This document shows positions 25,447-46,924 of a stretch of DNA of 64,000 nucleotides, piece by piece. The first letter of the stretch is position 1; every line of letters starts with the position of its first letter. A program made the translations under genes and the position numbers. The stretch is taken from positions 1 through 64,000 of the forward strand of contig JAJDXQ010000019.1 in the NCBI GenBank assembly GCA_022823185.1, given 5' to 3'. The notes beneath the pieces were generated by a model that saw only the letters and a program-made list of their open reading frames with translations, made no database searches and was not told the DNA's origin. The stretch is from Caldilineaceae bacterium. Lineage in GTDB: Bacteria; Chloroflexota; Anaerolineae; Caldilineales; Caldilineaceae.

Positions 25447-26444
25447 GCCAGTTGCTCCGTCGCAGCGCGAACATCCTGCCAGCGCCAGCAAGCGGAATCG
25501 TGATTTGAGGCCACACGTTGCAGAGGTGGATTCTCCTGCCAGCATTGGTCCACGGCAAATTGACACCTGGGGGCAAACGGACAGTGGACCGGCGCCTGGA
25601 GCAGATCCGGCGGCGCCCCTTCAATCGGGATCAGCCGGTCGGTGGCGATGGTGGCATGGAGGGAAGGCAGCGACTGCAGCAGGCCGAGAGTGTAGGGGTG
25701 GCTGGTCTTCTTGTAAAGGTCGAGCACTGATGCAGATTCGACAATGAATCCGGCGTACATCACGATTACTCTATTGACCAGCCCCGCCACCACACCTAGA
25801 TCGTGGGTTATCCAGATGGTCGCCATGCCAAACTGTTCGCTCAACCGTTTGACCAGGTCGATAATCTGGGCCTGGATGGTGACGTCGAGCGCGGTTGTCG
25901 GTTCGTCAGCAATGAGAACGGATGGATTGCAGGCCAGGCTCATGGCAATCATAATGCGTTGGCGCTGGCCCCCGGAAAACTGGTGCGGGAAATCCTTGCG
26001 GCGGCTGGCGGCGTTGGGAATGCCCACCAACTCCATCAACTCGACTGTTCGCTCTGTAATCTCTTCCTGGGACAGGTTCAGGTGCGGGCGCATTATCTCG
26101 GCAATCTGGTAACCGACGGTCAGGACCGGGTTGAGAGAGGTCATCGGATCCTGGAAGATCATGGCGATCTCGCGCCCGCGAATGTCACGCAGCTGGTCAG
26201 CCGACAGCTTGAGCAGATCGTTGTCCGCGAAGAAGACCTCGCCGCGCTCGACACGTCCCGGCGGATCGGGTATCAGCCCCATCAGCGAGAGGACGCCGAC
26301 GGTCTTGCCTGAGCCGCTTTCGCCGACAATGCCCAAAGACTCCCCTTCATCGAGCGTGTAGGAGATGCCGTTAACGGCGTGTACGGCGCCGTCTTCGGTA
26401 TAGAAGCGGGTGACGAGATCGCGCACTTCAAGCAGATGGGCCAT
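25443..26444 (-). CDS. Peptide ABC transporter ATPase (OppD/DppD type)
   Basis: A 333-residue ATPase. Walker A is [10 protein letters not shown] (about 41-50), the signature is [15 protein letters not shown], and Walker B is [13 protein letters not shown] Cys-containing C-terminal oligopeptide region ([14 protein letters not shown]) follows. Coupled by a four-base overlap to the OppF-like gene, with which it would form the nucleotide-binding heterodimer. The upstream gap of 91 bases to the binding-protein gene contains a strong hairpin (26495-26528). Confidence 0.95.
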
Positions 26445-26494
26445 GGAGCAACCTTGGCAGAAGGTTTGAGCTGGAACTTGGCGATGGATTGGGG

Positions 26495-26528
26495 TGAGGA
26501 GGCGCAGAGTTGGCCCCGCGCCTCCTCA
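26495..26528 (-). terminator. Strong hairpin after the binding-protein gene (partial terminator or stabiliser)
   Basis: TGAGGAGGCGC at 26495-26505 pairs perfectly with GCGCCTCCTCA at 26518-26528 (11 bp, 12-base loop). It starts eight bases after the stop codon of the binding protein and precedes the ATPase genes. Such stems commonly keep binding-protein mRNA more abundant than downstream transporter mRNA. No T-run is present. Confidence 0.6.
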
Positions 26529-26535
26529 TGAATAA

Positions 26536-28194: not shown

Positions 28195-28341
28195 CTTGTT
28201 CCTCCTGATGATTGAGTTACACGTGAACTTTTCAATACTGTGACGTATCCGCAGCGGTAAACACTCCATTGGCGTCTCCTTTCGTCCAGTATGGTCCAGG
28301 GATTGGAACAGATCGGATCACGATACCTCCGTGATAGCTGG

Positions 28342-29280
28342 CTACTTTCTCAGTTTGGGGTTGATGGCATCCTGCAACCCGTCACCGATCAAGTTGATGG
28401 AAAGAACGGCGATCACGATTGCCAAGCCCGGGAAAACAGGCATCCACCAGGCATGGCGCATGAATTCCCGGCCCAGATTCAGCATGGCGCCCCATTCCGG
28501 AGAGGGCGGCTGGGCGCCCAAACCGAGATAGCTCAGCCCTGCCGTGATCATGATAGCGATGCCCAGCCCCAGCGTGGCATAGACCAGGATCGGCCCGATC
28601 ACGTTGGGGAGAATGTGGCGGAACATGATGCGCCCGTTGCCGGCGCCAAGCACACGGGCGGCGCGGACATATTCGTTCTCCTTGGCCTCCAGCACGGAGC
28701 CGCGAATAAGGCGGGTATAGTCGGGGATATTGGCCAATCCGACGGCGAGCATCACCTGTACAAGGCCCGGCCCCAGAGCCCCGACCACGCTCAATGCCAG
28801 CAGAATGCCGGGGATGGCGAGCAGCACGTCCACACATCGCTGGATGAGGTTGTCTACCCAGCCACCTGCGAAGCCGGAAATCAACCCCAGAATTGTCCCG
28901 CCGCCCAGCCCAATCAGTACGACCAGGTAACCGGCCCGCAGCGATTCGCGCCCGCCCCAGATAACGCGGCCCAGCTGGTCCCGTCCGAGGTTGTCAGTGC
29001 CAAAGGGGTACGCCGCGCTGGGCGGCTGCAGCTTGGTCGCGTTAGAGACATTGATTATCTCTTCCCAGCTGAAGAGCCGGGGCGCGATAAGGGTGATCAG
29101 AATGATCAGCGCCATGATCAACAGCCCGGTCACCGCAAGGGGATCGCGGAAGAAGCGGAGCGCGGCCCTGCGCACTGGCGATCTGCTGGCCACCAGCCAG
29201 TCGCCGGCCGCTGGAGCGATTTCTATGCCTTCGGATGCTGCCGTCCCGCCTCGAGCCGCTTGGGGCTTGGTCCTGCTCAT
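28342..29280 (-). CDS. Peptide ABC permease (DppC/OppC type)
   Basis: A 312-residue permease with about six helices. The N-terminal cytoplasmic stretch is followed by FFRDPLAVTGLLIMALIIL, then FGTDNLGRDQLGRVIWGGRESL and the EAA loop KENEYVRAARVLGAGNGRIMFRHI. Start ATG at 29280 is preceded by GAGGGAAGG and is nine bases after the DppB-like gene, so the two are cotranscribed. It lacks the large external insertion of the paralogue at 12674-13924 and is of standard length. Confidence 0.95.
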   Translation of the reverse strand: MSRTKPQAARGGTAASEGIEIAPAAGDWLVASRSPVRRAALRFFRDPLAVTGLLIMALIILITLIAPRLFSWEEIINVSNATKLQPPSAAYPFGTDNLGRDQLGRVIWGGRESLRAGYLVVLIGLGGGTILGLISGFAGGWVDNLIQRCVDVLLAIPGILLALSVVGALGPGLVQVMLAVGLANIPDYTRLIRGSVLEAKENEYVRAARVLGAGNGRIMFRHILPNVIGPILVYATLGLGIAIMITAGLSYLGLGAQPPSPEWGAMLNLGREFMRHAWWMPVFPGLAIVIAVLSINLIGDGLQDAINPKLRK

Positions 29281-29289
29281 AGCCTTCCC

Positions 29290-30216
29290 TCATTCATACG
29301 TGATGCGTGGATCAATAACGCCGTACAGCAGATCGACGATCAGATTGACGAAGACATAGCCGGCGGCGACAAAGAGAATTCCCCCACGAATCTGCGGATA
29401 GTCCCTGGCGCTGATCGAATCAACCAGAAATCTTCCCAACCCCGGGCGGCCAAATACATTTTCCACAAACACCTGGCCTGAAAGAAGACTCCCGGCCAGT
29501 AGCCCCAGATAGGTCACGATTGGGATCAGGGCATTGCGAAAAATGTGCATGAATGTCACCAGAGACTCGCGAATACCCTTGGCGCGGGCGGTGCGGACGT
29601 AGTCCTCTTCCATCACCTCCAACATGCTGGCGCGTGTGAGGCGGGCCAGGACCCCGGCCGGAATCAGAGCCATCGCCGCAGCCGGCAGGACGAGGCTCTT
29701 GAGACCCTCATCACCTACCACTTTGAACCATCTCAACTCTACAGCGAAGATCAGAAGCAGGAGGAGGGCGGCATATACGCTGGGTATGGAAACGCCGACG
29801 AAGGCGAAGACCATGGTGAGTTTGTCGGGCAGGCCCCCGCGATAGAGGGCAGCCAGAACGCCCGCTGAGATACCCAACAGCATGGTCGCGATCAAACCGG
29901 CGATCGCCAGTTGGATCGTGCTGGGAAGTCTGGCCAGGATATCGTTCAGAACTGAACTCCCGCCGCGGAACGAAGTGCCCAGGTCGCCGCGCATTGCGTC
30001 CCAGAGAAAGTTCAGGTACTGCACGTGGAGGGGATCGTTCAGGTGAAGTTGCTCCCGGATTCGCTCAATGTCCTCGGCCGTATTCCCGTATTCTTCGCTG
30101 ACAACGGCTGCGAGCGGGTCTCCGGGCGCCAGAGCGAGGATTGCAAAGATAACCAGAGAGACCCCCAGGAGGGTCGGGAAGATCAACAGCAGTCGTCTGA
30201 GTGTGTAGACTAGCAT
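29290..30216 (-). CDS. Peptide ABC permease (DppB/OppB type)
   Basis: A 308-residue permease. The N-terminus LRRLLLIFPTLLGVSLVIF is followed by LAPGDPLAA and the six-helix BPD_transp_1 domain with the EAA loop EEDYVRTARAKGIRESLVTF. It is the first transporter gene of the cluster, 78 bases after an S9 peptidase gene, with all genes on the minus strand. A short GC-rich string TTGCGGGGTGTCCCTGC lies in the gap just upstream (about 30255). Forms the membrane channel with the DppC-like protein. Confidence 0.95.
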   Translation of the reverse strand: MLVYTLRRLLLIFPTLLGVSLVIFAILALAPGDPLAAVVSEEYGNTAEDIERIREQLHLNDPLHVQYLNFLWDAMRGDLGTSFRGGSSVLNDILARLPSTIQLAIAGLIATMLLGISAGVLAALYRGGLPDKLTMVFAFVGVSIPSVYAALLLLLIFAVELRWFKVVGDEGLKSLVLPAAAMALIPAGVLARLTRASMLEVMEEDYVRTARAKGIRESLVTFMHIFRNALIPIVTYLGLLAGSLLSGQVFVENVFGRPGLGRFLVDSISARDYPQIRGGILFVAAGYVFVNLIVDLLYGVIDPRITYE

Positions 30217-30294
30217 TGGCGATCCTGAATATCCATTGTGCCCGGATTGGCGGCATTGCGGGGTGTCCCTGCTTGCGCCAACACCCCAAGACGG

Positions 30295-32265
30295 CTATGC
30301 GATAACATACCGGTCCATCCAGTCGAGCAGGGCTTCGTTCTGCGCGCGCCTGATCTCCAGTGCGCCGGAGGTCGAGCCGCCATGCGAGCTGTTAGGCAGG
30401 CGCAGCATCTCCGCGATGCAGTCGTTCGCCTGCAGGACGGTATAGAACTGCTCAGACTGCTCCGCAGGGCAGCGCAGGTCTCGTTCAGCCTGAATCAGCA
30501 GAGTTGGGGTCGTGCAGCGATGGGCCAGGTGAATCGGTGAGGCGTTGCGGTAGGCGTCGAAGGCCCGGTGTGGGGGACCACCCATTGCTTCCCAAGGGAG
30601 AGCGATGGAGGAGAATATATCGGCCGCGCCATACCAGGATTCCCAGTTTGTGATCGGGTTTTCCGCCGCGGCGGCCTTGAACCGGTCGGTGTGGCAGACG
30701 GCCCAGCACGTGAGATAGCCGCCGTACGATGACCCGCACACGCCCAGGCGCTCCGGATCGGCCAACCCCAACTCGATACTGTGGTCGACACCGGCCATCA
30801 GGTCGGCGAACTCCAACTCGCCCATTCTGCGGTTGATCGCGGCCATGAAGGCGCCACCATAGCCAAGCGAGCCGCGATAGTTGACCAGCAGCACAGCGTA
30901 GCCTGCGCCGGCCAGCATCTGAAAATCGAGAGAGAATACGTTTCCCCAGGCCATGTCGGGGCCGCCATGGTTGAAGAGTATGGTGGGATAGGGCGGCTCC
31001 CCGGATGGCGGCAGCATGAGCCATCCCTCTATAGGCGTGCCGTCCTTGCTGGCAAATGTGAGATGCTTTACCGCAGGAAGGTCAAACTCTGCCAGCAGGG
31101 CACGATTGAAGGCGGTGACCTTCCGCCCATCTGTGCCGTCGGCATCAGCCAGATGGAGGTTGCCAGGTTCGTTAAAGGTGTTGACAGTCATCAAAACCTT
31201 GTCACCGTTCAACCCGACAACATCGCACACTCGCTCGCCGTCGACCACAGGCGCATAGTCCGTTTCCCCTGTAAGGGCGATGCGATAGATCGATTTTGTG
31301 CCGCCAATCTGAACAGGGACGTAGGCATCCTTCCCGTCGGCGGAAATATGCAGATTGGGCGCGTCACAGGCGATGATCGGCATATCGAACTGGAATTTCC
31401 CCGCCACATTATGCTGGATGCCGGTGGTGCGGCATTGCGGGGTTCCGCCCTGCTTGGGAACGACCCACAGATGCTTGTGGCTCTGCTTGGGGGCGTCCAC
31501 CGGGTTGCCGACAAAGACGATCCTCTCCCCGTCCGGCGTCCAGCCGGCTGAGGGAGGGTTGGTGGCATATCCCCAGTCCTTGACGACATCGCGCACCTCG
31601 CCGTTCAGGTCCACGACGCGCAGCGCGGCGAACCAGCGGTACGAAAAGGGATAGCAGGCGGTGGCAAGGAGGATCTCACGGCTGTCGGGGGACCAGACTG
31701 GGCCGGTGCGATAGCAATTGTAGGCGTCATCTTGGGTCAGGTTGCGTGCATCGCCTCCGCCGGCCGGCACAACAAACAGGTCGGGAGCTGTGTCATGCAG
31801 ATAGCCTTCGCCATCGAGACGATAGACCGTGCGGGTGACGCGATACGGTTTGTCAGGAAAGGCCGGGGCTGCTGTTGCTGAGGCGGAAAAGGCGATATAT
31901 CGGCCGTCGGGCGACCAAACCGGACCTCTGCGCACGCCCTGGGCAAGCTTGGTGAGCTGCCGCGGCGCGCCGCCGGAAACCGCCATAGCGTAAAGCTGCC
32001 GTCTGCCGGTGCGTGTCGAAAAGAAGGCCAGCTGCGCGCTGTCAGGAGACCATGCCGGATGGCTGTCCTGCGCCAGCCCGGCTGTCAATTTGCGCGCTTC
32101 ACCGGTATCGAGGGCAAGCAGCCAGATCGCGGCGCGTTCCTCGTCGCTTTCGGCATCAACGTGCGTGATGCAGTAGGCGACATGACTTCCGTCGGGCGAA
32201 AGTTTGGCATCCTGCAAGAACTGGAATCGAAACAGGTCTTCAGGCCGGACTGTGCGCTTAGTCAT
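30295..32265 (-). CDS. S9-family serine peptidase (acylaminoacyl-peptidase-like)
   Basis: A 656-residue cytoplasmic peptidase. An N-terminal WD40-like propeller (repeats WSPDSAQLAFFS, WSPDGRYIAFSA, WTPDGERIVFVG) spans residues 1 to about 390. It is followed by a prolyl-oligopeptidase catalytic domain with nucleophile motif G-S-S-Y-G-G, acid Asp in QAERDLRCP and His in NSSHGG. The start is ATG at 32265; no Shine-Dalgarno is obvious. It is a close paralogue of 33668-35641, and the pair flanks a serine hydrolase gene. Expected to trim imported peptides. There is no signal peptide. Confidence 0.94.
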   Translation of the reverse strand: MTKRTVRPEDLFRFQFLQDAKLSPDGSHVAYCITHVDAESDEERAAIWLLALDTGEARKLTAGLAQDSHPAWSPDSAQLAFFSTRTGRRQLYAMAVSGGAPRQLTKLAQGVRRGPVWSPDGRYIAFSASATAAPAFPDKPYRVTRTVYRLDGEGYLHDTAPDLFVVPAGGGDARNLTQDDAYNCYRTGPVWSPDSREILLATACYPFSYRWFAALRVVDLNGEVRDVVKDWGYATNPPSAGWTPDGERIVFVGNPVDAPKQSHKHLWVVPKQGGTPQCRTTGIQHNVAGKFQFDMPIIACDAPNLHISADGKDAYVPVQIGGTKSIYRIALTGETDYAPVVDGERVCDVVGLNGDKVLMTVNTFNEPGNLHLADADGTDGRKVTAFNRALLAEFDLPAVKHLTFASKDGTPIEGWLMLPPSGEPPYPTILFNHGGPDMAWGNVFSLDFQMLAGAGYAVLLVNYRGSLGYGGAFMAAINRRMGELEFADLMAGVDHSIELGLADPERLGVCGSSYGGYLTCWAVCHTDRFKAAAAENPITNWESWYGAADIFSSIALPWEAMGGPPHRAFDAYRNASPIHLAHRCTTPTLLIQAERDLRCPAEQSEQFYTVLQANDCIAEMLRLPNSSHGGSTSGALEIRRAQNEALLDWMDRYVIA

Positions 32266-32356
32266 GTTGTGCGAAATCGCGTATATCCTTGCTTTTTGGG
32301 AAGACCGATTGGGCGCATACTCATGCACAGACGGGGCTGGATGGCTCTCCTGTGTA

Positions 32357-33616
32357 TCAGGAGCGGGCCATATGAACCGCTTCAAACATCTCCTTCCACC
32401 AGTAGTAGGGCGCCCCGGTTCGCTGGTTCACCGTGCCGCAGAAATAGATACCGCTCTCCGGCTCAAAGTACATCTTGGCGCCATACGCGCCGGAATGGCC
32501 CAAAGCCACCCTTCCTTGTCCGCTTCCTTCGGCGAATATCCCTAATCCAACACCGGCTCGGGGTGGGCTGATTCCGGGACATGAGCGCCACTGCAACATC
32601 GCTGCCAGCGTGTCCGCATTCTGGAACAGCTGGCCGTCCATCAACGCGCGCAGGAATCGAATCACATCGGCCGCGGTGGAGACGACGCCGCCGCCGCCGC
32701 GATCAAACGAAACGTTGATGCGGCTGGTCACATAAGGGACATCTCCGAGATAGAAGTCGGAAACCTCGTATATCCACGGTTCAGGCTCAGGATCTCTGGC
32801 GTAGGCCAGATAGCTCTTGTCCATGCCAAGCGGGTCGAAGATACGTTCCCGCCACTGCCGGTGCAGGCTCTTGCCGGAGAGCTTCTCCGACAGCAGCCCA
32901 AGGATTACATACCCGGTATCGCTGTAGTGGAACGCCTCGCCGGGCGGGGTGAGCGAGGCCGCTGCGGTACCGCTGGCCAGAAACCAGTTTATGACCCCTG
33001 CTTCCTTGTCTTCGGGGCAAGCTGGATCCCACATGGTCCACTCTTTGCTCGTGATCAGGACGGAAATGTCGCAAGCCGGATCGGCCAGGCAGGCCAGATG
33101 CGCAGGGATAGCCTTTCTGAGCCGCGCGCCGTATGAACCGGGGGCCGGCTCGCCGTAGTCGTGCGCCGTGCCGGTGGCATCATCCACGACAGCATCCTTG
33201 ATGCCGGCGGTATGTGTCAGCAGATGGCGAACGGTGATCTTCTTGCCGTAGCTGACGCCGTCGATCATGTTCAGCCGCGCCGCGATCTCTTCATCGAAAA
33301 GAGCGAGGTCGGCCAGGGCGGTATCCAATCCACGCGGCCCCAGAGCCCCTTCTTCCCACAGCTGCAGCAGGAGTGTCGCGGTCATCGTCTTGGCCACGCT
33401 GGCCAGATGGAACTGGTGGCCAGGTGTCATCGGCGCATCCGAATCGGCGTTGGCCTTGCCCACCGCTGCCTCGTGAACAAAGCCCAGGTCCGGAATCTCC
33501 ACGCGCAGTACTGCGTTCTTGACGCCAGGCCCTGCGCTGACGCCCCCGCCGGCAAACAACCGCGCCAGCGCCTGATCCAGATTTGACCGTGCCTGGTCTT
33601 CCTTGAATGATCTCAT
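32357..33616 (-). CDS. Serine hydrolase, beta-lactamase class C / D-aminopeptidase-like
   Basis: A 419-residue enzyme of the penicillin-binding/beta-lactamase superfamily. Motif 1 S-x-x-K is SVAK in LASVAKTMTATLL, motif 2 is Y-S-D in FHYSDTGYVILG, and motif 3 is H-S-G in ALGHSGAYGA. No signal peptide is present, unusual for a lactamase or PBP and more like a cytoplasmic esterase or D-stereospecific aminopeptidase. It sits between two S9 peptidase genes in the peptide cluster, which favours a peptide or D-amino-acid substrate. That is inference from context. Confidence 0.9.
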   Translation of the reverse strand: MRSFKEDQARSNLDQALARLFAGGGVSAGPGVKNAVLRVEIPDLGFVHEAAVGKANADSDAPMTPGHQFHLASVAKTMTATLLLQLWEEGALGPRGLDTALADLALFDEEIAARLNMIDGVSYGKKITVRHLLTHTAGIKDAVVDDATGTAHDYGEPAPGSYGARLRKAIPAHLACLADPACDISVLITSKEWTMWDPACPEDKEAGVINWFLASGTAAASLTPPGEAFHYSDTGYVILGLLSEKLSGKSLHRQWRERIFDPLGMDKSYLAYARDPEPEPWIYEVSDFYLGDVPYVTSRINVSFDRGGGGVVSTAADVIRFLRALMDGQLFQNADTLAAMLQWRSCPGISPPRAGVGLGIFAEGSGQGRVALGHSGAYGAKMYFEPESGIYFCGTVNQRTGAPYYWWKEMFEAVHMARS

Positions 33617-33667
33617 AGGAAACGCCCTGCCCGGAGAACGCGTCACCGGGAACAGTTGCCTGAAGCT

Positions 33668-35641
33668 CTATCCGGCAGCCGGCACATATCGATTCATCCA
33701 GTCTAACAGCGCCTCATTCTGGGCGCGGCGAATCTCCAGCGGGCCGCCGACTGATCCGCTGTGGGGGCTTTCAGGCAGGCGCAGCATCTCGACTGTACAG
33801 CCATTGGCCCGCAGCACCGTGTAAAACTGTTCTGACTGCTCCGTTGGCACGCGCAGATCCTTCTCCCCCTGAATTAATAATGTCGGCGTCGTGCAGCGAT
33901 GGGCGTAGGTGATCGATGAACAGCGCCGGTAGGCTTCCGGGACTTCAAACAGATGGCCTCCAATGGATTCAGGATGGGTGGGCCCCATGTCGCTGACTCC
34001 ATACCAGGTAGCCCGATTGATGACCGCGTTTTCAGGTACGGCGGCTTTGAAGCGATCGGTATGCGTTATGATCCAGCAGGATAGACATCCCCCATAGGAG
34101 AGGCCGCAGACGCCCATTTGATCGGGGTCGGCCAGACCCTCTTCAATCACATGGTCGACCGCTGCCATCAGGTCGGCATACTCCAACTCCATCAGATGGG
34201 GGCCATTGATAGCGTTGCTGAAATCGTCGCCGTATCCGGTTGAACCGCGATAGTTGACCAGCAGGACAGCATAGCCCGCGCCCGCGAGCATTTGAAAGTC
34301 GAAGGAGAAGATGTGCCCCCAGCCGTGGTGCGGTCCCCCGTGAATATAGAGAATGGTGGGATATGGCGGCGCGCCGCCAGGCGGTTTCATCAACCATCCT
34401 TCCACCGGAACGCCATCGCTGCTGGCACAGGACAAGCGGACCGTCTCTGGCTGCGCCACACCCGCCAGCAGTTCGGCATTGAAATGCGTGAGTTGCCGTT
34501 CATGGGCCCCGTCCACATCTACCTGGTAAAGATTGGGCGGCACGTTGAGGTTGGAGGCCGACATCAGCAGGCGGCCGTCATGCAGGCCGATAGGATAACA
34601 GGCGCGGTCGCCGCCCACCACCATTTCACAGTCGATATCCCCGTCAAGGGCGACCCGATACACCTGCATTTTTCCGCCATCCTGTATGCGCACATAGGCG
34701 TTCCGCCCATCGTCGGCAACCTGGAATTTCGGGTAATCGCGGTAGCCAACCGGCATATCTGCCTGCAGAGGGCCTTCGATATTGCCAACCAGCCCGGTTG
34801 TGCGGCACTCGGGCGCGCCTCCCTTGCTATCAACCACCCACAGGTGGTTCTGGGCGCTGAAGGGCGCATCGATCTGGTTGCCGACGAAGATCACGCGCGC
34901 CCCGTCTGGCGACCAGACCGCGGAGTAGGCGGCATATCCCCATTCCCTGACCAGATCGCGCACCTCGCCGTTCAGATTGGCCACCCGCAGCGCAGCGAAG
35001 AAACGATATTCATCTGGGAAGAATGTGGTCGTGAACAGGATCTCCTGGCTGTCGGGAGACCATTCCGGCGCTGTGTAGCGGCAGTTGTGATTCTCGTCCT
35101 GGGTCAGGTTGCGCGCCTCTCCTCCTGTGGCCGGTACAACATAGAGGTCATGTACGGCGTTGTGAAGATAGCCCATCGCGTCGAGCCTGTAGATCTTCCG
35201 AGTTACCCGGTAGGGCTTGGTGGGGAAAACCGGTTCAGAAGTTGCTCGCGCTGAGAAAGCGATATGCTTCCCATCAGGTGACCAGGCCGGGCCGCGACCA
35301 ACGCCTTGCGGCAGATTCGTCAGCATTCGCATTTCGCCGCCGTCTACAGAAATCGTATGAAGTTGCTTTACACCGCTACGGTTTGAAAAAAAAGCGATCT
35401 GGGTTTCATCGGGCGACCAGAAAGGATTGCTATCGACGGCTTGGCCGTCCGTGAGCTGCCGCGCTTCACCGGTCTGAGGCGAAAGGATCCAGATGGCGCA
35501 GTACTCCTCGTCTATGTCCGTGTCGACATGCGAAATACAGTAAGCAGCCTGCGTTCCGCTAGGGGACAACTTGGCATCCTGCAGGAACTGAAGTTGAAAC
35601 AGGTCTTCTGGCTGCAAGGTGCGCTGGGTTTCGCTGGACAT
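33668..35641 (-). CDS. S9-family serine peptidase (acylaminoacyl-peptidase-like, paralogue)
   Basis: A 657-residue paralogue of the 30295-32265 peptidase; both begin with PEDLFxxQFLQDAKLSP. The propeller region has WSPDETQIAFFS, WSPDGKHIAFSA and WSPDGARVIFVG. The catalytic domain has G-L-S-Y-G-G as nucleophile elbow, Asp in QGEKDLRVP and His in ESPHSG. AAAGGA lies upstream of ATG at 35641. The tandem arrangement S9, serine hydrolase, S9 suggests a local duplication followed by specialisation for different peptides. Cytoplasmic, since no export signal is seen. Confidence 0.94.
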   Translation of the reverse strand: MSSETQRTLQPEDLFQLQFLQDAKLSPSGTQAAYCISHVDTDIDEEYCAIWILSPQTGEARQLTDGQAVDSNPFWSPDETQIAFFSNRSGVKQLHTISVDGGEMRMLTNLPQGVGRGPAWSPDGKHIAFSARATSEPVFPTKPYRVTRKIYRLDAMGYLHNAVHDLYVVPATGGEARNLTQDENHNCRYTAPEWSPDSQEILFTTTFFPDEYRFFAALRVANLNGEVRDLVREWGYAAYSAVWSPDGARVIFVGNQIDAPFSAQNHLWVVDSKGGAPECRTTGLVGNIEGPLQADMPVGYRDYPKFQVADDGRNAYVRIQDGGKMQVYRVALDGDIDCEMVVGGDRACYPIGLHDGRLLMSASNLNVPPNLYQVDVDGAHERQLTHFNAELLAGVAQPETVRLSCASSDGVPVEGWLMKPPGGAPPYPTILYIHGGPHHGWGHIFSFDFQMLAGAGYAVLLVNYRGSTGYGDDFSNAINGPHLMELEYADLMAAVDHVIEEGLADPDQMGVCGLSYGGCLSCWIITHTDRFKAAVPENAVINRATWYGVSDMGPTHPESIGGHLFEVPEAYRRCSSITYAHRCTTPTLLIQGEKDLRVPTEQSEQFYTVLRANGCTVEMLRLPESPHSGSVGGPLEIRRAQNEALLDWMNRYVPAAG

Positions 35642-35740
35642 GTTGCTCTGTTCCTTTGAAATATGACTGAATCGTTAGAGATGGGGGCCCCGCAGTCGGC
35701 AACGTTTTTCAAGTCCGTTGCCGGAGTTGCCCCTTGCCGG

Positions 35741-36973
35741 CTAGTCTTCCAGCATGGCGATCTCCTCCGGGATCTGAAGGGCAGCGTTGGGAAAGACCGA
35801 GACAGCGGCCTCGTTCCCGTGGCGTCTTCTCAGTTCTGCGACCACTTCCGGCCAACTGTTGAAGAGACATGTGTCCTGCGGAAATTCCTCAATATCCGCA
35901 TAGGAAAGATTGGGCGAAAAGATGATCAGCCCGTTCTTTCCCAGATGGATTTTCTCGCGTTTGAGCGGACCATGCGCGCGCATGCCGCTGCTGAGGAGAT
36001 AGTGAATGCCGGCGCCGTGCGTGCAGGCGGTGGCCAGCACCGCTGAACCGGCCGGCTTGATCGCACGTCTGAGATCCCGCGCCACGGCATTCATCGAGTT
36101 GAGCACTTGCACCAGGTCGGTGTCCTTGGGATAGGCGTTGAAGACCGCGATGTCGGCCGGAGGCGGAAACCTGGTACTATAGACTTTGCGCGCAAACCTG
36201 ACGCCGGCGCGGTGGGCTGCCACCGGGTCACCGGCGAAAAGGGCGACCAGTTCGCGACGCGAATTGACCACTGTATTGACCGCAAAACGATGGCCTACCT
36301 TGCGGCCGATCTCCTCCAAATCTGCGCGCAGTTCATTGCCCTCTATACGACCCGCCATGGAGTGCGGCAGCCTGTAGGCGATGGTGTGGTTGGCATGCAG
36401 CGTCTCGATACCGGCCATGCCCACCGCCACCGTCTTGACCCCGCCGGCAAACCCTGCATGGCCGTGGGGCACAATTGTGCCGATGCTGAGCCGCAGGTCA
36501 GCCTCCAAAAAGAAAGCGTTGGTATAGATCGGTGTCCCGCGCTGGGTTTCGCCCAGATATTTGCGGTTTTCGTGGGGCTGATTCTGATAGATGGGGAAAT
36601 CTTCCACGATCGAGCGACCCAGTTTCAAGATTAACTCCTGGCGGCGCATCGGCGTATGCGCGCCCAGGCCAATGATGAAACGGATATTCTCGGGATCGAG
36701 GCCGCCCGCTTGCAGTTCGGCGATCACCAGGGACGCAATATGCCCCAGAGGGGAGGGGCGCGTGATGTCCTCAACAACAATTGCAGCCTGCGTGCTTGTT
36801 CCGGCCAGTTCCTGCAGGGTTGGCGCGCCGATCGGTTGCCGCAGCCTTTCAGCCAGGGAATCCGGCTCAGCCGGCGCAGCGTCAGCCATCTGCACTTTTT
36901 CCACACGCCAGGTTTCCGGAAAGTCCAGCTCGATTTCCCGGTCTCCATACCATGCCTGCCAGAGGATCTTCAT
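35741..36973 (-). CDS. LarA-like nickel-pincer racemase/epimerase (DUF2088)
   Basis: A 410-residue member of the lactate racemase (LarA) family, enzymes that interconvert 2-hydroxyacid stereoisomers using a nickel-pincer nucleotide. Family landmarks are VVEDITRPSPLG, GLGAHTPMRRQEL (cofactor-region His) and the VPHGHAGFAGGVKTVAVG segment, which holds the conserved His and Lys that bind the cofactor. It is in a run of peptide-degrading genes and next to an aminotransferase. The cofactor genes larB, larC and larE are absent from the window. The substrate need not be lactate: many LarA homologues act on other hydroxyacids. Confidence 0.88.
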   Translation of the reverse strand: MKILWQAWYGDREIELDFPETWRVEKVQMADAAPAEPDSLAERLRQPIGAPTLQELAGTSTQAAIVVEDITRPSPLGHIASLVIAELQAGGLDPENIRFIIGLGAHTPMRRQELILKLGRSIVEDFPIYQNQPHENRKYLGETQRGTPIYTNAFFLEADLRLSIGTIVPHGHAGFAGGVKTVAVGMAGIETLHANHTIAYRLPHSMAGRIEGNELRADLEEIGRKVGHRFAVNTVVNSRRELVALFAGDPVAAHRAGVRFARKVYSTRFPPPADIAVFNAYPKDTDLVQVLNSMNAVARDLRRAIKPAGSAVLATACTHGAGIHYLLSSGMRAHGPLKREKIHLGKNGLIIFSPNLSYADIEEFPQDTCLFNSWPEVVAELRRRHGNEAAVSVFPNAALQIPEEIAMLED

Positions 36974-37130
36974 CCACTCACTCTCCCCTCAAATTGCCGA
37001 AAGTACAGAAAAGGGCGCTAGCTCATCCACTCTTGGGTCTTTTGAGCAGCCCAGTGTACGAACAGAGATTCCGAACTGAATCCGGGCCTGCGTGTGACAC
37101 AGCAGACGCGCTCCTGATTGCATAGACGCG

Positions 37131-38516
37131 TCAGTCCTGCAAGAGGTGGGGTGTATGTTCGATCATATAGGGCCTGACTACGTCCAGACTCTGCGCCATC
37201 ACAGCGGCAGCCGCATCGATCTCGCGCTCGGTCATCGGCGTGGAGATTGCGAACTGGCATCGAGGCGCGCTGAATATGCCCCGGTTCATCAACTCCAAGT
37301 GCAAGAGTTTGGGCAGATCCCGGGCGGCATCCTGCGCGGCCTTTGCCTCCCGCGCCGTTCGTATTTCGCCTTCACCCCAGTGGATGCGGATGATCGATCC
37401 CAGACCCGCGGCGCGGGCCCTCATGCCTGCCGCCTGAAATGCCCGGTTGAACCCGTCCTTCAGCCGCTGGCCCAGGTCGTTGATCCGCACCACCTCTTCG
37501 GCCCCATACGCCTTCATCGTCGCCATACCCGCGGCCATGGTGATGTTGTTGCCGTTGAACGTGCCGTTGTGGGGGATGGTTTGGGGGTGTGTCGGGGCAA
37601 ACGGCGCCATGATATCCTGCCGGCCCCCAAACGCGCCCAGGGGCAGCCCGCCTCCTATGAACTTGGCTACCGACGTCAGATCCGGTGTCACGCCGACAGA
37701 GGCCTGAACGCCGCCTACGTCAAGTCGAAATGTCAGAATCTCATCGAAGATCAGCAGCACGTCATAGGTGTCCGCCAGCTGCCTGACGCCTTGCAGGTAT
37801 CCTTGTTCCGGTTCGACGCCCCCACCGGAGCCGAGTACAGGTTCCAGAATGATGGCGGCGATCCCATCGCTGTGGACGCGCAAGAGATTCTCCAGGGCAT
37901 CGAGATCATTGAACGGCGCCACGCGCATTCCTTCCAGCACCGCCGCCGGCACACCCCTGGTGGTAATCCGCGGTCGCGGCAGACCATCCTCAGCAGCGTC
38001 GGACTGGACGTTTACCTGTACATAGTCATGGGAGCCGTGGTAGCCGCCGTCCATCTTGACGATGGTGTCTTTGCCTGTGAATGCCCGCGCCGCGCGCATG
38101 GCCAAATGTGTCGCTTCGGTTCCGGAATTGCAGTAGCGCACGCTCTCCAGGCTGGACACGCGGCTGCACAGCATCTCAGCATGTTCAACCGTCACTTCGG
38201 CGGCGGAACCGAGAACGGTTCCCCTGGCCGCCTGCTCCTGGATTGCGCTGACCGTGGCGGGGTGTGCGTGCCCATGGATCAGAGAGGTATAGTTGTTTAG
38301 GAAGTCGATGTACCTGTTTTCATCCAAGTCATAGAGGTAGCACCCTTCGCCGCGCGCCATGTATGCAGGATAGGGGGTGTAGTATGAGGCTGCCCTGGTG
38401 TCCCCGCCGGGCATCGACTTCTTGGCGCGCGCGTCCCACTCGCCGGATGCGTGGGTGCGCTGCATGAACGTTTCGATGACTGTGCTGGCGGCATTCTCGT
38501 CTACATTGGAACTCAC
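37131..38516 (-). CDS. Class-III PLP aminotransferase (glutamate-1-semialdehyde mutase-like)
   Basis: A 461-residue PLP enzyme. Motifs include SGTEATHLAMRAARAFTG and KMDGGYHGSHDY. The PLP-binding Asp is in LIFDEILTFR, and the Schiff-base Lys in SVAKFIGGGLPLGAFGG. The best start is GTG at 38516, with GGAGG ten bases upstream. It resembles HemL, but its place in a catabolic peptide cluster and the altered active-site surroundings make an amino-acid or beta-amino-acid transaminase or aminomutase more likely than heme synthesis. Located between an S9 peptidase and the LarA-like gene. Confidence 0.9.
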   Translation of the reverse strand: MSSNVDENAASTVIETFMQRTHASGEWDARAKKSMPGGDTRAASYYTPYPAYMARGEGCYLYDLDENRYIDFLNNYTSLIHGHAHPATVSAIQEQAARGTVLGSAAEVTVEHAEMLCSRVSSLESVRYCNSGTEATHLAMRAARAFTGKDTIVKMDGGYHGSHDYVQVNVQSDAAEDGLPRPRITTRGVPAAVLEGMRVAPFNDLDALENLLRVHSDGIAAIILEPVLGSGGGVEPEQGYLQGVRQLADTYDVLLIFDEILTFRLDVGGVQASVGVTPDLTSVAKFIGGGLPLGAFGGRQDIMAPFAPTHPQTIPHNGTFNGNNITMAAGMATMKAYGAEEVVRINDLGQRLKDGFNRAFQAAGMRARAAGLGSIIRIHWGEGEIRTAREAKAAQDAARDLPKLLHLELMNRGIFSAPRCQFAISTPMTEREIDAAAAVMAQSLDVVRPYMIEHTPHLLQD

Positions 38517-38685
38517 AGCAGGCCTCCATGTGGGCGGCGTTCAGACGCCGCGCGCTCTCTGAGGGCTGAACGGGGAGCCGCAAGCCTGAAGGGCAACGAT
38601 GAGCTCAATCTGCCGCCTGGCATTCTTCTCGAATATGGGCGAGAGCGAGAGAATCCGGTCTTCCCTGCCGGCTACTGCAGGCTGG

Positions 38686-40644
38686 TCACTCGTTCGTGTT
38701 GCGAGAAAAGCCCTCCAGGTTGTCGATATGCAGAGGCGGCAGATCGTCGGCGGGCTCGAACCCGAAAATCTGACCGAAGAATGCCAGCTCCGTCTGGTGA
38801 ACGCGGACGTTCGTCTCGAAGAAACGGAACCCATGCGCCTCGCCTTCGAATTCGATATGCACCACCGGCACCCCCCTGGCGCGCAGGGCTTCGGCAACAA
38901 AACGGGACTGGTTGGGCGGCACAATCTTATCTTCGAGCCCTTGAAATATGAGCAACGGCGCGTTGATTTCGCCGGCTCTATGAATCGGTGAGCGCTCCTG
39001 ATAAAGAGCCCTCTGCTCGGGATAGGGCCCGATCAGGGCGCTGGCATAGTGGGCTTCGAATTTGTGCGTCTCCTGATCCCAGAATTCAAGGTCGCTGATA
39101 CCGTAGTGGCTTGAGCCCGCCTTGAACTCGTCGCGGAAGGCAAGTGCGGCAAAGGTAGTATAGCCGCCCGCGCTGCCGCCTCGTACGATGGTTCGCGCTT
39201 TATCCGCAAGCCCTTGTTCCGCCAGGTGGCGCGCGCCGTTGACGGCATCGTCGACGTCAACGACACCCCACTTTCCCCGCAGCCGATTCCGATATTCCCG
39301 GCCGTAACCCGCGCTGCCGCCGTAATTGATTTCCAACACGGCAAACCCGCGGCTTGTGTAAAACTGCACCCCCATATCCAGCGCGTGTTTGACCGAACCG
39401 GTCGGGCCACCGTGCGCGTTGACGATCAGAGGCGGCAGCTCACCTTCGGGCGCCACATAATCCGGGTTGTGCGGCGGATGGTAATACCCATGGGCTTGAA
39501 GACCATTTTCAGTTGGGTAGGAGATGTGCGCGCTCGGAGAGATATACGCCTCCGAAACCGCATCCTGCACCGAACTTGCCAGGCAGGTGTATGCCCCGCT
39601 TCTCAGGTCAATCTTAAACAGAGAACGCGGTGTGCCTGGCGATGCCGCCACGACGAAAGCGTGATCACCGACCACCTCCAGATGGATAATATATGTGAAG
39701 TCGGTGTTGAGTTCCCTGCGTGCACCTGTCTCCGTATCGATCTGCCCGAGATGCCACGTGCCATTCTCATTGTAGGCGGCCAGAACCCGGGATGGCGTGA
39801 GAAAACGGTACATCGTCTTGCCGATATTCCAATAGGGATTGCCCAGCTCTGCCTCCATTGGAGACACCGCCGTGATCTCGCCATCATGCCAGCGATAGAG
39901 GTTCCACCAATTTGAGCGATCGGAGCAGAAGTAGAGGTCTCCGTTTGGAGACCAGCGGGGATCGGTAACGCTCTCCTCCCGCTCCGGCACGATCTGCTGA
40001 ACGTTCGCCAGGCTGCCATCCTCGTCCACATCCGCGGCCCAAAGGCTGCTGGAAAAGAAGGGCATGTTGGGGTGGTTCCAGGCGACCCAGGCCAATTTGC
40101 GGCCATCCTCATTCAGAACGGGGAAGGCGACGAAATCTGTCTGATCGAACAGGACAGCGCCAAACTCGTCACCGTCGAGATTGACCGCAGCGATGGTGTG
40201 TTTGGGTTCGCCTGTGGGCGTGTGATCTTCACGGATGCAGATCAGCCGGTTGCGCCTGTGGTCGATGACCAGGTCGGCGTAACGCATTGCGCCTTCGGCT
40301 GTAATAGGTCGGGGAGATTCGCCGGGCAGGTGGCGATACAGGCGGTCGTCGGGAAAGTTGGAGAAGTAGATTACGCCGTCTTTAACGGCGAAGCAGCTGC
40401 CGCCGTACTCATATACCCGCGTCCGTGCATCGAAAGTCGCCGGCGTCAGTTGCTCAATGTGCCCATCCGCAAGCAAGCGGGCGACGGCGCTCCGACCGCC
40501 CTGTTCGGGGATACGTAAAAGTATGTAGATATTATCGCTTGCCGCATAGAGTTGGTTGATCCAGTGCTGTGAACTGGCAGCCACCAGTCCAGCGCTGATT
40601 GGGGAACGCCAGCTTCCATACGGCGCGCTCCGCTTTTGTGCCAT
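38686..40644 (-). CDS. S9-family peptidase (dipeptidyl/acylaminoacyl-peptidase)
   Basis: A 652-residue peptidase, only distantly related to the other two in the cluster. The propeller covers about residues 20-380 (VTDPRWSPNGDLYFCSD, FFSSSLWAADV). The catalytic domain has nucleophile elbow G-G-S-A-G-G, Asp in GLEDKIVPP and His in EGEAHGFR. There is no signal peptide. ATG at 40644 is the first gene after the promoter at 40819-40846, so it probably leads the 16-kb peptide operon. Known relatives release dipeptides or acylated residues. Confidence 0.93.
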   Translation of the reverse strand: MAQKRSAPYGSWRSPISAGLVAASSQHWINQLYAASDNIYILLRIPEQGGRSAVARLLADGHIEQLTPATFDARTRVYEYGGSCFAVKDGVIYFSNFPDDRLYRHLPGESPRPITAEGAMRYADLVIDHRRNRLICIREDHTPTGEPKHTIAAVNLDGDEFGAVLFDQTDFVAFPVLNEDGRKLAWVAWNHPNMPFFSSSLWAADVDEDGSLANVQQIVPEREESVTDPRWSPNGDLYFCSDRSNWWNLYRWHDGEITAVSPMEAELGNPYWNIGKTMYRFLTPSRVLAAYNENGTWHLGQIDTETGARRELNTDFTYIIHLEVVGDHAFVVAASPGTPRSLFKIDLRSGAYTCLASSVQDAVSEAYISPSAHISYPTENGLQAHGYYHPPHNPDYVAPEGELPPLIVNAHGGPTGSVKHALDMGVQFYTSRGFAVLEINYGGSAGYGREYRNRLRGKWGVVDVDDAVNGARHLAEQGLADKARTIVRGGSAGGYTTFAALAFRDEFKAGSSHYGISDLEFWDQETHKFEAHYASALIGPYPEQRALYQERSPIHRAGEINAPLLIFQGLEDKIVPPNQSRFVAEALRARGVPVVHIEFEGEAHGFRFFETNVRVHQTELAFFGQIFGFEPADDLPPLHIDNLEGFSRNTNE

Positions 40645-40818
40645 GATTCCCGTACAAGCTGGTTTGCCGGCTGTCGAAAACAGCTAAACGATCGCAGGCT
40701 CACGTCTTTCTACAGAGATATGGCCCGGCTGAACACCTGTCGGCATGACCGTCAAGCAAAGCCCAGCGTTCAGGCATCGTATTGACCAGATCTGACGACA
40801 GGAGCCCAAGATAAAATA

Positions 40819-40846
40819 ATTATATATATGTTTCTGTGAATTGCAA
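40819..40846 (-). promoter_or_regulatory. Promoter of the peptide-utilisation cluster
   Basis: Minus strand TTGCAA (40846-40841) is followed after 16 bases by a perfect TATAAT (40824-40819), inside an AT-rich patch in otherwise GC-rich DNA. It lies 175 bases before the first peptidase gene and immediately downstream of an intrinsic terminator, exactly where an operon promoter is expected. Confidence 0.6.
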
Positions 40847-40852
40847 TGCGCG

Positions 40853-40890
40853 AAAAATCCTCTGGGATTCCAGCATTTGGAATCCCAGAG
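40853..40890 (-). terminator. Intrinsic terminator (13-bp stem plus T-run)
   Basis: On the minus strand CTCTGGGATTCCA and TGGAATCCCAGAG (plus coordinates 40878-40890 and 40860-40872) form a perfect 13-bp stem with a five-base loop, followed by GATTTTT. It ends transcription arriving from the remnant and nucleotidyltransferase side, and it insulates the peptide operon promoter. Confidence 0.85.
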
Positions 40891-40918
40891 ACAGTCAGAA
40901 AATCGTTCCTGTGTTGGG

Positions 40919-41210
40919 CTAAGCCGAGAGATGTTCGCCGGGGATGCGCGAGCGCGCGTACTCCCGGTTGGCGTCGCGGTTGGCAAGTACTTCAGGGATC
41001 TCGCCCTCCCAGTAGCCGGGGGAGTTGTCCCAATCGTCGTCGCGCCGCCGGTGCCAGGCAAGGATCAGCGTCCGGCGCTCATCGGTCAGGCTGCTGCGCC
41101 GCGGCCTGGTCGACGTCGAAGATGTAACCGAGTTCGGCGCGGGGATGGTTCGCGATGTTGCGGGCGTGGATCGTGCCGGCGCGGCCGGCGCCAAAGAGGG
41201 CAAATCGCAT
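40919..41210 (-). pseudogene. Chimeric remnant: Gfo/Idh/MocA 5' end joined to PhyH 3' end
   Basis: Read on the minus strand, bases 41210 to 41093 (118 bp) look identical to the first 118 bases of the dehydrogenase gene at 24134-24017, beginning exactly at its ATG. At a short shared GCTGCG-type junction this gives way to the last 170 bases of a PhyH gene. That part encodes LTDERRTLILAWHRRRDD and EIPEVLANRDANREYARSRI, similar but not identical to the 3' end of the PhyH gene at 41804. The halves are in different frames, so the dehydrogenase frame stops soon after the junction. No functional product is expected. The PhyH part keeps a terminator downstream. Confidence 0.85.
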
Positions 41211-41291
41211 GGACCCTGTTTCCAGTGGACAGTGATGAGAAGTGAAAAGTCAGGAGCGGGAAATAAGAGCTCCTTTCTGAAATTCACACCT

Positions 41292-41609
41292 TTAGGCGTC
41301 TTGGGTGTAGCCCGCGCCATACTGAATTACGGCTGAATCGACAATCGCTTCCTTGAATAGAGGGTTCAGGCTTTTCTCGACACCCTTATAGGTCAGCAGA
41401 TGGGTTGAACGGTCAAGCGCTTCGCTCAACTCCTTTTCCATACGCGCCAGGTGCAATAACCCTACCTTTACGCCCGAGTCAAACTCGACGATAAGATCCA
41501 AGTCTTCCTCCGACGCAGGACTCTTTTGTATAAGAGCCAAACGACGGATTTGGTGACGCTGACAGAAATCAGCAACAACGTCTTTAGGGATCTCAATCTG
41601 TGCCTTCAT
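41292..41609 (-). CDS. MNT-type nucleotidyltransferase-fold protein, degenerate active site
   Basis: A 105-residue protein of the minimal-nucleotidyltransferase (MNT) group, usually the antitoxin partner of a HEPN toxin. The second motif D-L-D-L-I-V-E-F at about 36-43 and the LLHLARMEKELSEALDR helix are well conserved. The first motif, normally G-S-x-x-R after the strand LALF, reads LALIQKSPASEE and lacks the glycine-serine. No HEPN gene is adjacent. It is either a decayed orphan antitoxin or a variant with altered chemistry. It lies between the chimeric remnant and a PhyH gene. Confidence 0.75.
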   Translation of the reverse strand: MKAQIEIPKDVVADFCQRHQIRRLALIQKSPASEEDLDLIVEFDSGVKVGLLHLARMEKELSEALDRSTHLLTYKGVEKSLNPLFKEAIVDSAVIQYGAGYTQDA

Positions 41610-41803
41610 TGGTGTATTCCAGAAAATCAGCCTGACCGCGGAAGCGAAGCCGATGGGACATACACGACCGCGTCACTGCTTGAGCGCAGCATAACACGCG
41701 CTTGAAATTACGATCGTTCGCAACATCTACGCACTGAAAGGCAGGAGTCTCTCCTGCTTTCGCAAACTCCTGGCCCCTTTGGGATATCTCTTAGCATAGC
41801 ACC

Positions 41804-42613
41804 CTACTGGCCGCTGAATTCGAGATGTTCGCCGGGGATGCGCGAGCGTTCGTATTCCCGGTCGGCGTCGCGGTTGGCAAGGACTTCAGGAATCTCACCC
41901 TCCCAGTAGGCCGGGGGGTCGTGCCAAACGTCGTCGCGCCGCCGGTGCCAGGCCAGAATCAGCGTCCGCCGCTCATCGGTCAGGTTCTGCCGCGCCGAGT
42001 GCAGCACACGGGCGTCCGCCAGCACAAAGGACCGGGCGCGCACGCAGACGTCGACCTGGTCGGGATGGTCGCCGAACATGACCGGATGGTCCTCTTCGAT
42101 GTAGCGCGCGCCCTGTTCGTGCGCGGGCACAAGCTCATCGTGCAGCTCAATTCGCTTGTGGTGCGTGCCGGGGATGACCTTGAGACAGCCGTTCTCGACG
42201 CTGGTGTCGCTCAGATAGTAGGAGACGAAGATCTGCTGCGGCCAGGGCGTGACGCTGATCGGGTCCTCCCAGCTCGCCCAGTCCTGGTGCCAGTATAGGG
42301 CCGGTTCGCCCGGGTCTTTGGTGAGGATGATGATGCCGCCGGTGCTCTCGAAATCGCCGAATCCCATCTCATCGAGCGCCTGCCGCGCCGGCTGCCATTC
42401 CAGGAGCCTCCTGATGACGTCGTTCTCCTCACCGTGTACATTCACGTGCTGGCCCTGGTACCGCACGTCGGGCGGGGGGACGTGAGCGGCGATGAGGCGC
42501 TCCGATTCTTCGCGCAGCTCCTGCAGGAACTCTTCGGTCAGGATGTCGTCAACAAAGCAGTAACCGTCCTTCAGCATCTGTTCTCGTTTGGCCAGCGCGA
42601 TTTCGGGTTGCAT
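41804..42613 (-). CDS. PhyH-family Fe(II)/2-oxoglutarate dioxygenase
   Basis: A 269-residue PhyH enzyme. Iron ligands are His109 and Asp111 in YWHQDWASW, with the distal His in ARVLHSARQNLTDERR; the nearby Arg binds 2-oxoglutarate. The C-terminus AWHRRRDDVWHDPPAYWEGEIPEV is duplicated in diverged form in the remnant at 40919. AGGAG precedes ATG at 42613. It is the third gene after DegT and another PhyH gene on the minus strand, likely cotranscribed from the 45131 promoter. Substrate unknown; a sugar-derived or amino-acid-like small molecule is plausible. Confidence 0.93.
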   Translation of the reverse strand: MQPEIALAKREQMLKDGYCFVDDILTEEFLQELREESERLIAAHVPPPDVRYQGQHVNVHGEENDVIRRLLEWQPARQALDEMGFGDFESTGGIIILTKDPGEPALYWHQDWASWEDPISVTPWPQQIFVSYYLSDTSVENGCLKVIPGTHHKRIELHDELVPAHEQGARYIEEDHPVMFGDHPDQVDVCVRARSFVLADARVLHSARQNLTDERRTLILAWHRRRDDVWHDPPAYWEGEIPEVLANRDADREYERSRIPGEHLEFSGQ

Positions 42614-45212: not shown

Positions 45213-45427
45213 TACGCCGCGTTCCAGTGGAGCAAAAACACGTCGCCCAACCCCTTCAGCGCTACAGGAGGGTCGATTCCAGTAGAAAACCGACAGTTCC
45301 TCCGATTCACCAGGTCAAGCGACAATTGGCTGCGGGCCTCACCGTTGGTGGCCTGCACCGTTGACCGAATCCATGCCGGCTCAGACCGGAATTCCTATTT
45401 CACAATCTTACAGAAAGGAAAGGAACG

Positions 45428-46924
45428 ATGACAGACCGTGCAGTTTCTCGACGCGCATTTCTTAAGACGGCAGGTGTCGCGACATTAGGGGTAGGCTTGG
45501 CGGCCTGCCAGGCGCCGATGGCCCCCGCGGGCGGCGACGACGACGGCGCGATGGGCGAGCCCAAGGAGTTGGTTACGTATTGGGGCGGCTGGACGCCCAC
45601 CCAGAGCATGGAACGTTCCGAAGACAACCCGCTGCCGCACAACAAGGTCCTTGAGGTGCTGGACGGGTACACGGAGCAACACCCCGACGTGAGCATCGAG
45701 TGGATCCGCGTTCCCCAGGGCATCAGCGGCCGTGAATGGACGATCGCGCAGCAGACCGCGGGGACGATTCCCCACATCACCACACACCCGCACTGGCACA
45801 TCAAGGACGACTTGGATAAGAACTGGTGGACAGATCTGACGCCTTACTTCAACCAGCCGAACCCCTACATCCCGGCGGGCGACCCCGGCAGCGAGAAGTG
45901 GGTCGACCAGTTCTACCCGATCCCAACCGGTGAAACGCTGATGCGCGGCGGTTACTACAACATCGTCTTCGGCCTCATCACCACCTTCTTCTACTACAAC
46001 GTCGACTGGTTCAACGATCTGGGCGTTGACGAGCCCAAGAACTACGCCGAATTCCTCTCCGTCTGCCAGGCCTTCCGCGATGAAGGTATTGACGCCTATG
46101 GCGGCTGGACCGGCCCCGTTGACGATACCGACCACTGGTACCGCCTGCAAATGGGCGGGATGCTCATGGCCGGCGAGATCGAGCCGCAGGTCAACCCCGA
46201 CCGCGGCACGGCCACCCGCGAGGAGGTTGCCTGCGCCGTTGAAAATGGCATCTACCACGCCCACCTGCCCCAATACCGGGATTGGATGGAGCTGTGGAAA
46301 GAAAATGTGCAGTACCGGCCTGCGGACTGGACCACCCGCGCCACCGACTCCCATTCGCGCTTCCTCAACAAGATCGAGCCGATCATGGAAAACGGCACCT
46401 GGTCCTTCCCCCGCCTGCAGTACGATCCGCTGGTCGACTTCGAGTGGAGCACCTTCTTCGCGCCGGTTGTGACCAAAGAGAGCAGCGCCTATGCCACCGA
46501 CCCGCCGACACCTGCCTGGCCCATTGGCGGTCCCGTGGGCGACCAGGTGGCAGTCACCACCCGTTCCGAGAAGGACGGCGTGATCGATACCGCAATCGAC
46601 CTGATGCGCTGGATTTCGGTGCCGGACAATCTGTATACGATCCAGTCCGAGATCGGCACCACCATGCCCAATGTCAAGAACGTACCGGTCGACCCCCGCT
46701 TCGGGGATGCGTTTGAACTGCTGACGCAGCAGATTGGTGAGTCGCAGATGTTCGTGTACGAAGTGGTGACGATGGACGGAGAGTCGGCGGAGCAGACCGG
46801 CCAGGCCTGGCGCTCCTACATGCTGGATCAGATGGACCTGGACACCGCCCTGGACATCATCCAGGAGTCTTTCGCCGCCTACGCTGACCGCTTCATCGAA
46901 GTGGAAGGGTTGGACTGTTCGTAA
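45428..46924 (+). CDS. Sugar ABC substrate-binding lipoprotein (family 1, CUT1)
   Basis: A 498-residue extracytoplasmic binding protein. It has the twin-arginine motif SRRAFLK (residues 7-13), a hydrophobic core and lipobox L-A-A-C with Cys27, then a Gly/Asp linker. The family-1 body has VTYWGGWTP, SRFLNKIEPIMENGTWSFP and many Trp and Tyr residues typical of sugar stacking. AAAGGAAAGGA precedes the ATG. It is the first gene of an operon of binding protein, PhyH and two permeases, followed by a strong hairpin at 46933-46982. Ligand is probably a mono- or oligosaccharide. Confidence 0.94.
   Translation: MTDRAVSRRAFLKTAGVATLGVGLAACQAPMAPAGGDDDGAMGEPKELVTYWGGWTPTQSMERSEDNPLPHNKVLEVLDGYTEQHPDVSIEWIRVPQGISGREWTIAQQTAGTIPHITTHPHWHIKDDLDKNWWTDLTPYFNQPNPYIPAGDPGSEKWVDQFYPIPTGETLMRGGYYNIVFGLITTFFYYNVDWFNDLGVDEPKNYAEFLSVCQAFRDEGIDAYGGWTGPVDDTDHWYRLQMGGMLMAGEIEPQVNPDRGTATREEVACAVENGIYHAHLPQYRDWMELWKENVQYRPADWTTRATDSHSRFLNKIEPIMENGTWSFPRLQYDPLVDFEWSTFFAPVVTKESSAYATDPPTPAWPIGGPVGDQVAVTTRSEKDGVIDTAIDLMRWISVPDNLYTIQSEIGTTMPNVKNVPVDPRFGDAFELLTQQIGESQMFVYEVVTMDGESAEQTGQAWRSYMLDQMDLDTALDIIQESFAAYADRFIEVEGLDCS

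Follow-up and report, generated by a model that had tools for sequence, protein, structure and literature searches.

How does the start of a gene come to lie, without a single difference, 17 kb away from the gene to which it belongs, and why does the likeness stop at the start codon? The question is raised by a locus of a Caldilineaceae genome (G000; 5.17 Mb, 46 contigs), whose contig C3 begins with the window analysed here, a stretch of 64 kb. Positions 41093-41210 and 24017-24134 of this window are equal at 118 of 118 positions on the same strand, as a sequence-only reading had claimed, and the similarity is strong where an alignment might have shown it to be weak: BLAST extends the repeat to 24014-24134 and 41090-41210, 121 bp with one mismatch (E about 1e-55). 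The same reading had recognised in it the first 118 bases of a Gfo/Idh/MocA oxidoreductase gene, and the end of the repeat does coincide with the complement of the ATG of this gene (23157-24134, minus strand), to which we add that the leaders still align weakly over the 16 bp or so that precede the ATG (10/16 matches, counted by eye) before the similarity ends. Judged from these alignments, the ATG marks the stop of the identity rather than a clean cut.

The right member of the repeat (Gfo', 41093-41210, minus strand) is joined to PhyH' (40928-41101, minus strand), a 3'-terminal fragment of a second PhyH allele, which is 89% identical to 41822-41997 (176 bases), the corresponding part of the intact PhyH gene. 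The description of the locus as a mosaic remnant, with a diverged PhyH 3' end beside the copied gene start, is borne out by these two gene fragments. The reading frame opened by the ATG at 41210 runs for 43 codons to a stop, and the Gfo' and PhyH' halves are not in one frame. Neither half has a further copy elsewhere in the 5.17 Mb of the G000 genome.

The G000 locus reads, in order, PhyH, MNT, P, Gfo' (118 bp) fused to PhyH' (tail), d, cluster, u and Gfo. The intact PhyH gene (41804-42613, minus strand; 269 aa, PF05721) and the intact Gfo gene (325 aa, Pfam PF01408, PF02894 and PF22725), whose first 118 bp at 24017-24134 (minus strand) are the left member of the repeat, form the two borders. 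Between them, the first slot carries an MNT-type nucleotidyltransferase gene (41292-41609, minus strand; 105 aa, PF01909) and P (41211-41291), an ancestral-type Gfo leader whose homologue stands on the intact Gfo of the relative G010 (85%). The second slot carries a 17-kb peptide-ABC-transporter/S9-peptidase cluster (24427-40644, minus strand), in which Pfam identifies two peptide-ABC ATPases, an SBP_bac_5 protein, two permeases and three S9 peptidases, together with a beta-lactamase-fold serine hydrolase, a LarA-like protein and a class-III aminotransferase. It is preceded by d (40783-40927), an intergenic stretch with a 73% homologue downstream of the intact PhyH of G009, and followed by u (24135-24426), the Gfo leader of the cluster-type allele, which is 96% identical to G009 over 168 bp and is also present in G015. 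No HepT partner of the MNT gene was found in the G000 locus, so that this gene appears to be an orphan; G006 has a HepT-like PF01934 gene (L105:13092-13466).

The PhyH-Gfo interval as a cargo slot

The comparison set consists of 17 Caldilineaceae genomes of one genus, i.e. G000 and 16 others. A Gfo orthologue is present in all 17 (69-98% identical), and full-length PhyH maps beside the slot. In every genome with both genes mapped on one contig, a single interval separates PhyH from Gfo, which follows downstream on the same strand. This interval is short in G002 (33 bp), G007 (199 bp), G009 (517 bp) and G010 (592 bp), measures about 0.8-1.1 kb with an MNT gene in G004, G005, G008, G011 and G014, is of middle size in G013 (2.6 kb), G001 (3.9 kb) and G016 (4.5 kb), and reaches 17.5-17.8 kb in G000, G006, G012 and G015; the G003 locus is divided among contigs, yet has the same cluster. 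The range from 33 bp to 17.8 kb leads us to regard the interval as a cargo slot. A Gfo homologue, 58% identical, was also met outside the Chloroflexota, in a MAG titled Immundisolibacterales (L077 917-1891).

Which of the two 118-bp segments stands at the original place? Gfo adjoins a homologue of the sequence from 41211 onwards in G010, G008, G005 and G013, and a shorter stretch of it in G004. Since the Gfo start of the relatives lies beside the homologue of 41211-41804, 41093-41210 is the ancestral position of the Gfo start and the cluster is the addition. Judged by this gene order, the Gfo start originally met its upstream region at 41210, from which the 17-kb second slot now separates the Gfo gene. 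The polarity assumed from the sequence alone, in which the Gfo gene 17 kb away was the donor and 41093-41210 the copy, is thus reversed. Furthermore, the sequence that recombination between the repeats is predicted to leave can be aligned without interruption, over 2378 bp at 94%, to G010, the nearest-arranged relative, which is in the single-slot state without the cluster; relative to this predicted empty site, G000 has a net gain of DNA. Other genomes also lack the cluster here. It occupies the same site in G003, G006, G012 and G015, and the other genus genomes hold no comparably close match. Across the tree, this distribution is scattered (G000; G015; G003/G006/G012) and needs several losses or exchanges, which counts against the model proposed below.

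Two side observations concern the window from 45266 onwards. About 296 bp of sequence homologous to 45266-45558 have been copied, in inverted orientation, into the PhyH-Gfo slot of G001 (C115:17652-17940, L111) and of G013 (C1:5216164-5216452, L110). This copy comprises the upstream region and the start of an SBP_bac_1 gene, another displaced gene start. In addition, G010 and G000 are 93-97% alike in neighbouring segments and only 85% alike at 45.3-46.9 kb (45266-46920), which suggests that either G000 or G010 has had this segment replaced.

Proposed stacking of two alleles at the slot

The model we propose, to which we give a probability of about 0.8, is that the feature would be the scar of an additive recombination at the PhyH-Gfo cargo slot by which two alleles were stacked. 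It is built on the arrangement itself, the junction word, the comparable scars of the relatives, the two leaders and the single-slot state of G010. The starting point would be two versions of one region, the resident PhyH-MNT-P-Gfo and a second, presumably foreign PhyH-d-cluster-u-Gfo, which may have entered by transformation, by conjugation or as a circle. The two alleles would be joined in tandem, one end being exchanged by homology within Gfo and the other end being joined at a short common word, located around base 110-134 of Gfo and around base 590-630 of PhyH. The outcome would be PhyH-MNT-P-Gfo'|PhyH'-d-cluster-u-Gfo, with the border genes intact on the outside and their fused fragments in the middle, and the 118-bp repeats would, somewhat more likely than not, later have been made identical by gene conversion. 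The order of these events is one that we infer.

The join lies at 41089-41101 (minus strand). Read in gene orientation, its sequence CGGCGCAGCAG combines CGGCGCAGCGG of Gfo with CGGCGCGGCAG of PhyH, and two bases have been lost after it. The two genes have here an 11-bp word in near-identical, hence imperfect, versions, of which the join is an exact hybrid. No exact word common to PhyH and Gfo in G000 is longer than GCTGGCGGACGCCCG, of 15 bp, which begins one base past the 118-bp copy; the same word is the longest in G010, PhyH and Gfo of both genomes encoding LADAR there, and in 60 codon-shuffled gene pairs the longest common word never exceeded 14 bp. In other genomes, the longest word can sit elsewhere. 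The join of G001 falls in the same region as the 15-bp word. Two routes to the G000 join would agree with its sequence, namely direct joining at the 11-bp word and a slippage deletion of 36 bp that started from a join like that of G001, and in both readings the Gfo'-PhyH' fusion would have been in frame before the 2-bp loss, without any function attached to it.

The abrupt end of the identity had been considered hard to explain at a start codon. It is accounted for by two different leaders attached to the same conserved coding sequence: the allele of cluster type has u, 96% identical to the leader of G009, and the allele of MNT type has P, similar to the leader of G010. The ATG is not a universal breakpoint, since both Gfo copies of G015 share about 15 bp upstream of it. 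We reject the clean ATG boundary as the signal of a special process on these two grounds.

Comparable scars are found in the relatives, as in the case of the PhyH' tail that stands at the end of the cluster in all five cluster-bearing genomes (G000, G003, G006, G012 and G015). Double slots with fragments of both border genes occur in G012 (PhyH' of 150 bp with stops, Gfo' of 79 bp) and G015 (PhyH' of about 46 bp, Gfo' of about 59 bp), and the PhyH' part alone remains in G003 and G006, followed in the latter by the HepT-like gene and MNT. G001 has a double slot without the cluster. Each of its slots contains an MNT gene or what remains of one, and between them Gfo' (45 codons) and PhyH' (codons 198-269) are joined in frame at the common word GACGCCCG. 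A related but separate case is the more distant G016, with the order PhyH, internal Gfo fragment, two-component genes, PhyH tail and Gfo; its stack (L074 4765-10984) holds an intact PhyH, tandem 28-bp intergenic units, the internal Gfo fragment, the two-component system, a near-identical PhyH tail and an intact Gfo. The scars of the relatives are decaying by stops and deletions. The junction points vary among genomes, which fits a common origin with later deletions as well as a repeated origin near the same word. Related genomes had been proposed as the place to look for the same junction and for an intact PhyH donor. Scars of this kind exist in several relatives. The second allele alone (intact PhyH-d-cluster-u-Gfo) was found in none of the 17 genus genomes, which counts against the model, so that the donor allele is one that we infer.

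The structure resembles homology-facilitated illegitimate recombination, in which homology integrates one end and illegitimate joining the other (PMC3240628). One junction is homologous, the Gfo body being homologous and intact, and the other is microhomologous, at the 11-bp word in G000 and at GACGCCCG in G001; the net addition of DNA and the partial duplication of the border genes are likewise shared features. Unlike the cases described there, both ends of the DNA added in G000 are alleles of the same locus, and the G000 case is deduced from end products alone, so that its membership is one of structure only. The same class of recombination has been proposed for the stacked effector-immunity arrays of Vibrio cholerae T6SS clusters (PMC5361080), which share with G000 the new alleles beside old ones, the conserved borders and the displaced remnants; the G000 cargo, in contrast, lies between metabolic genes and consists of an MNT gene and a peptide transporter/peptidase cluster, and its scar is a fused 5'/3' pair of two border genes. 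The merodiploids of Streptococcus pneumoniae that arise by transformation, with duplications of about 100-900 kb and repeats such as incomplete IS861 copies (PMC3784515), have a similar tandem structure, due there to unequal exchange during DNA uptake, whereas the G000 units differ in cargo and are joined at a short word. The plasmid collection searched with the remnant gave no match, and a literature search on gene conversion and truncated duplicates yielded nothing specific. The G000 scar is a tidy case of an already known kind of event, with no new shuffling machine.

Age of the scar and identity of the copies

The identity of the 118 bp is a separate matter. We lean towards gene conversion between the direct repeats of an old scar, the sequence-only reading having already put forward recent gene conversion, which stands as a serious candidate. 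The cluster is 86-90% identical between genomes, which equals the divergence of the flanking genes, and the trees of cluster and flanks have their main groups in common. These two findings indicate that the presence of the cluster at the PhyH-Gfo site is probably old, and a perfect repeat then needs a later homogenisation. A recent horizontal transfer of the cluster between clades is not favoured, the cluster being no more alike than the flanks. If the scars of G000, G012 and G015 share one origin, the perfect match of G000 would require gene conversion, with a tract bounded by heterology at both ends: Gfo' differs from the Gfo of its own genome at 0/118 positions in G000, 10/79 in G012 and 4/59 in G015.

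If the G000 stack were a separate and younger event, no conversion would be needed. This alternative, which we regard as possible though doubtful, places a single recent event in the G000 lineage after its split from G009/G010, the 118 bp being identical for lack of time. It agrees with the absence of differences between copies of a gene start that differs by 1 in G010 and by 4 in G009, with the unstacked state of G010, and with the 15-bp word present in both G000 and G010. It has to contend, however, with the related scars of G012 and G015, which lie at the same place beside the same cluster at a divergence equal to that of the core, and with G009, which retains leader u at 96% and the d region at 73% and so probably descends from a carrier of the second allele. 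The private non-silent changes of PhyH' are a further objection: outside the junction edge it has 4 private changes (3 non-silent) and Gfo' has 0, a weak contrast, as (160/278)^4 is about 0.11. The private changes of PhyH' are distributed 2/3/1 over the codon positions, against mostly third positions in the intact genes, and two of them, at the junction edge, may stem from the 2-bp loss; as a sign of decay, this pattern would be only suggestive.

Other origins and consequences of the stack

A plain tandem duplication within one genome, by slippage or by unequal sister crossover at the PhyH/Gfo word, followed by the replacement of the cargo of one slot, is unlikely, although it predicts exactly the observed order of the pieces and agrees with the MNT gene or remnant in both slots of G001. 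It requires the replacement as a second step, and the PhyH' sequences speak against it: that of G000 has 21 differences in 171 bp from its own PhyH and 17-29 from those of other species, and the G001 tail is closest to that of G015, at 3 amino-acid changes, its own PhyH being 6 changes away. Being about as far from its own PhyH as from the others in G000 and nearest to G015 in the case of G001, PhyH' points to a foreign allele.

An assembly chimera, conceivable in an assembly of 46 contigs, is very improbable, as in our judgement an assembler could not have made the join on an imperfect word of 11 bp, and G012, G001 and the single-contig chromosome of G015 have related scars, each with breakpoints of its own. 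Still less credible is the diversity-generating or programmed shuffling of gene starts that the sequence-only reading had entertained: gene-end fragments do lie in the slot of several genomes, but the G000 copies have 0 differences and hence none of the adenine-directed differences of a diversity-generating retroelement over the 118 bp, the G000 remnant is out of frame, the scars of the relatives decay, with stops in G012, and neither a reverse transcriptase nor a recombinase is among those genes of the stretch from 18.4 to 46.9 kb that were scanned.

Two kinds of integration were also considered and rejected. The block has no integrase, transposase or relaxase gene, its genes belonging by Pfam to transporter, peptidase and metabolic families only, which speaks against an integrative element with site-specific integration; tRNA-associated integration is set aside, there being no tRNA in the 64-kb window. 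A special process is not needed for the perfect copy. Under the stacking of two alleles, the puzzle of a perfect copy of a gene start becomes a readable history made of two stacked alleles, a join at an 11-bp word and a 118-bp repeat.

Homologous recombination between the 118-bp repeats would be expected to delete the 17-kb cluster cleanly and to restore Gfo beside its old leader. Could the PhyH-Gfo interval be a recurrent hotspot of allele stacking, in which duplicated border fragments, kept alike by gene conversion, act as recombination handles and allow lineages to toggle between the stacked and the single-slot state without the enzyme of a mobile element? We put this forward tentatively, and if it were true, the 17-kb cluster or the MNT slot could drop out precisely. 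The apparent hotspot, with several independent or variously eroded stacks among 17 genomes, is the most interesting residue of the analysis. The 17 related Caldilineaceae genomes form a small natural series in which a 17-kb metabolic cluster can be traced through stacking, decay and what looks like a clean loss, in a block without an integrase or transposase gene.

Elsewhere in the window, a 57-bp direct repeat, 89% identical, is present at 57352-57408 and 59757-59813, beside a Schlafen/AlbA_2 gene and within a 643-aa ORF without a Pfam match, which itself repeats about 187 bp internally (74%).
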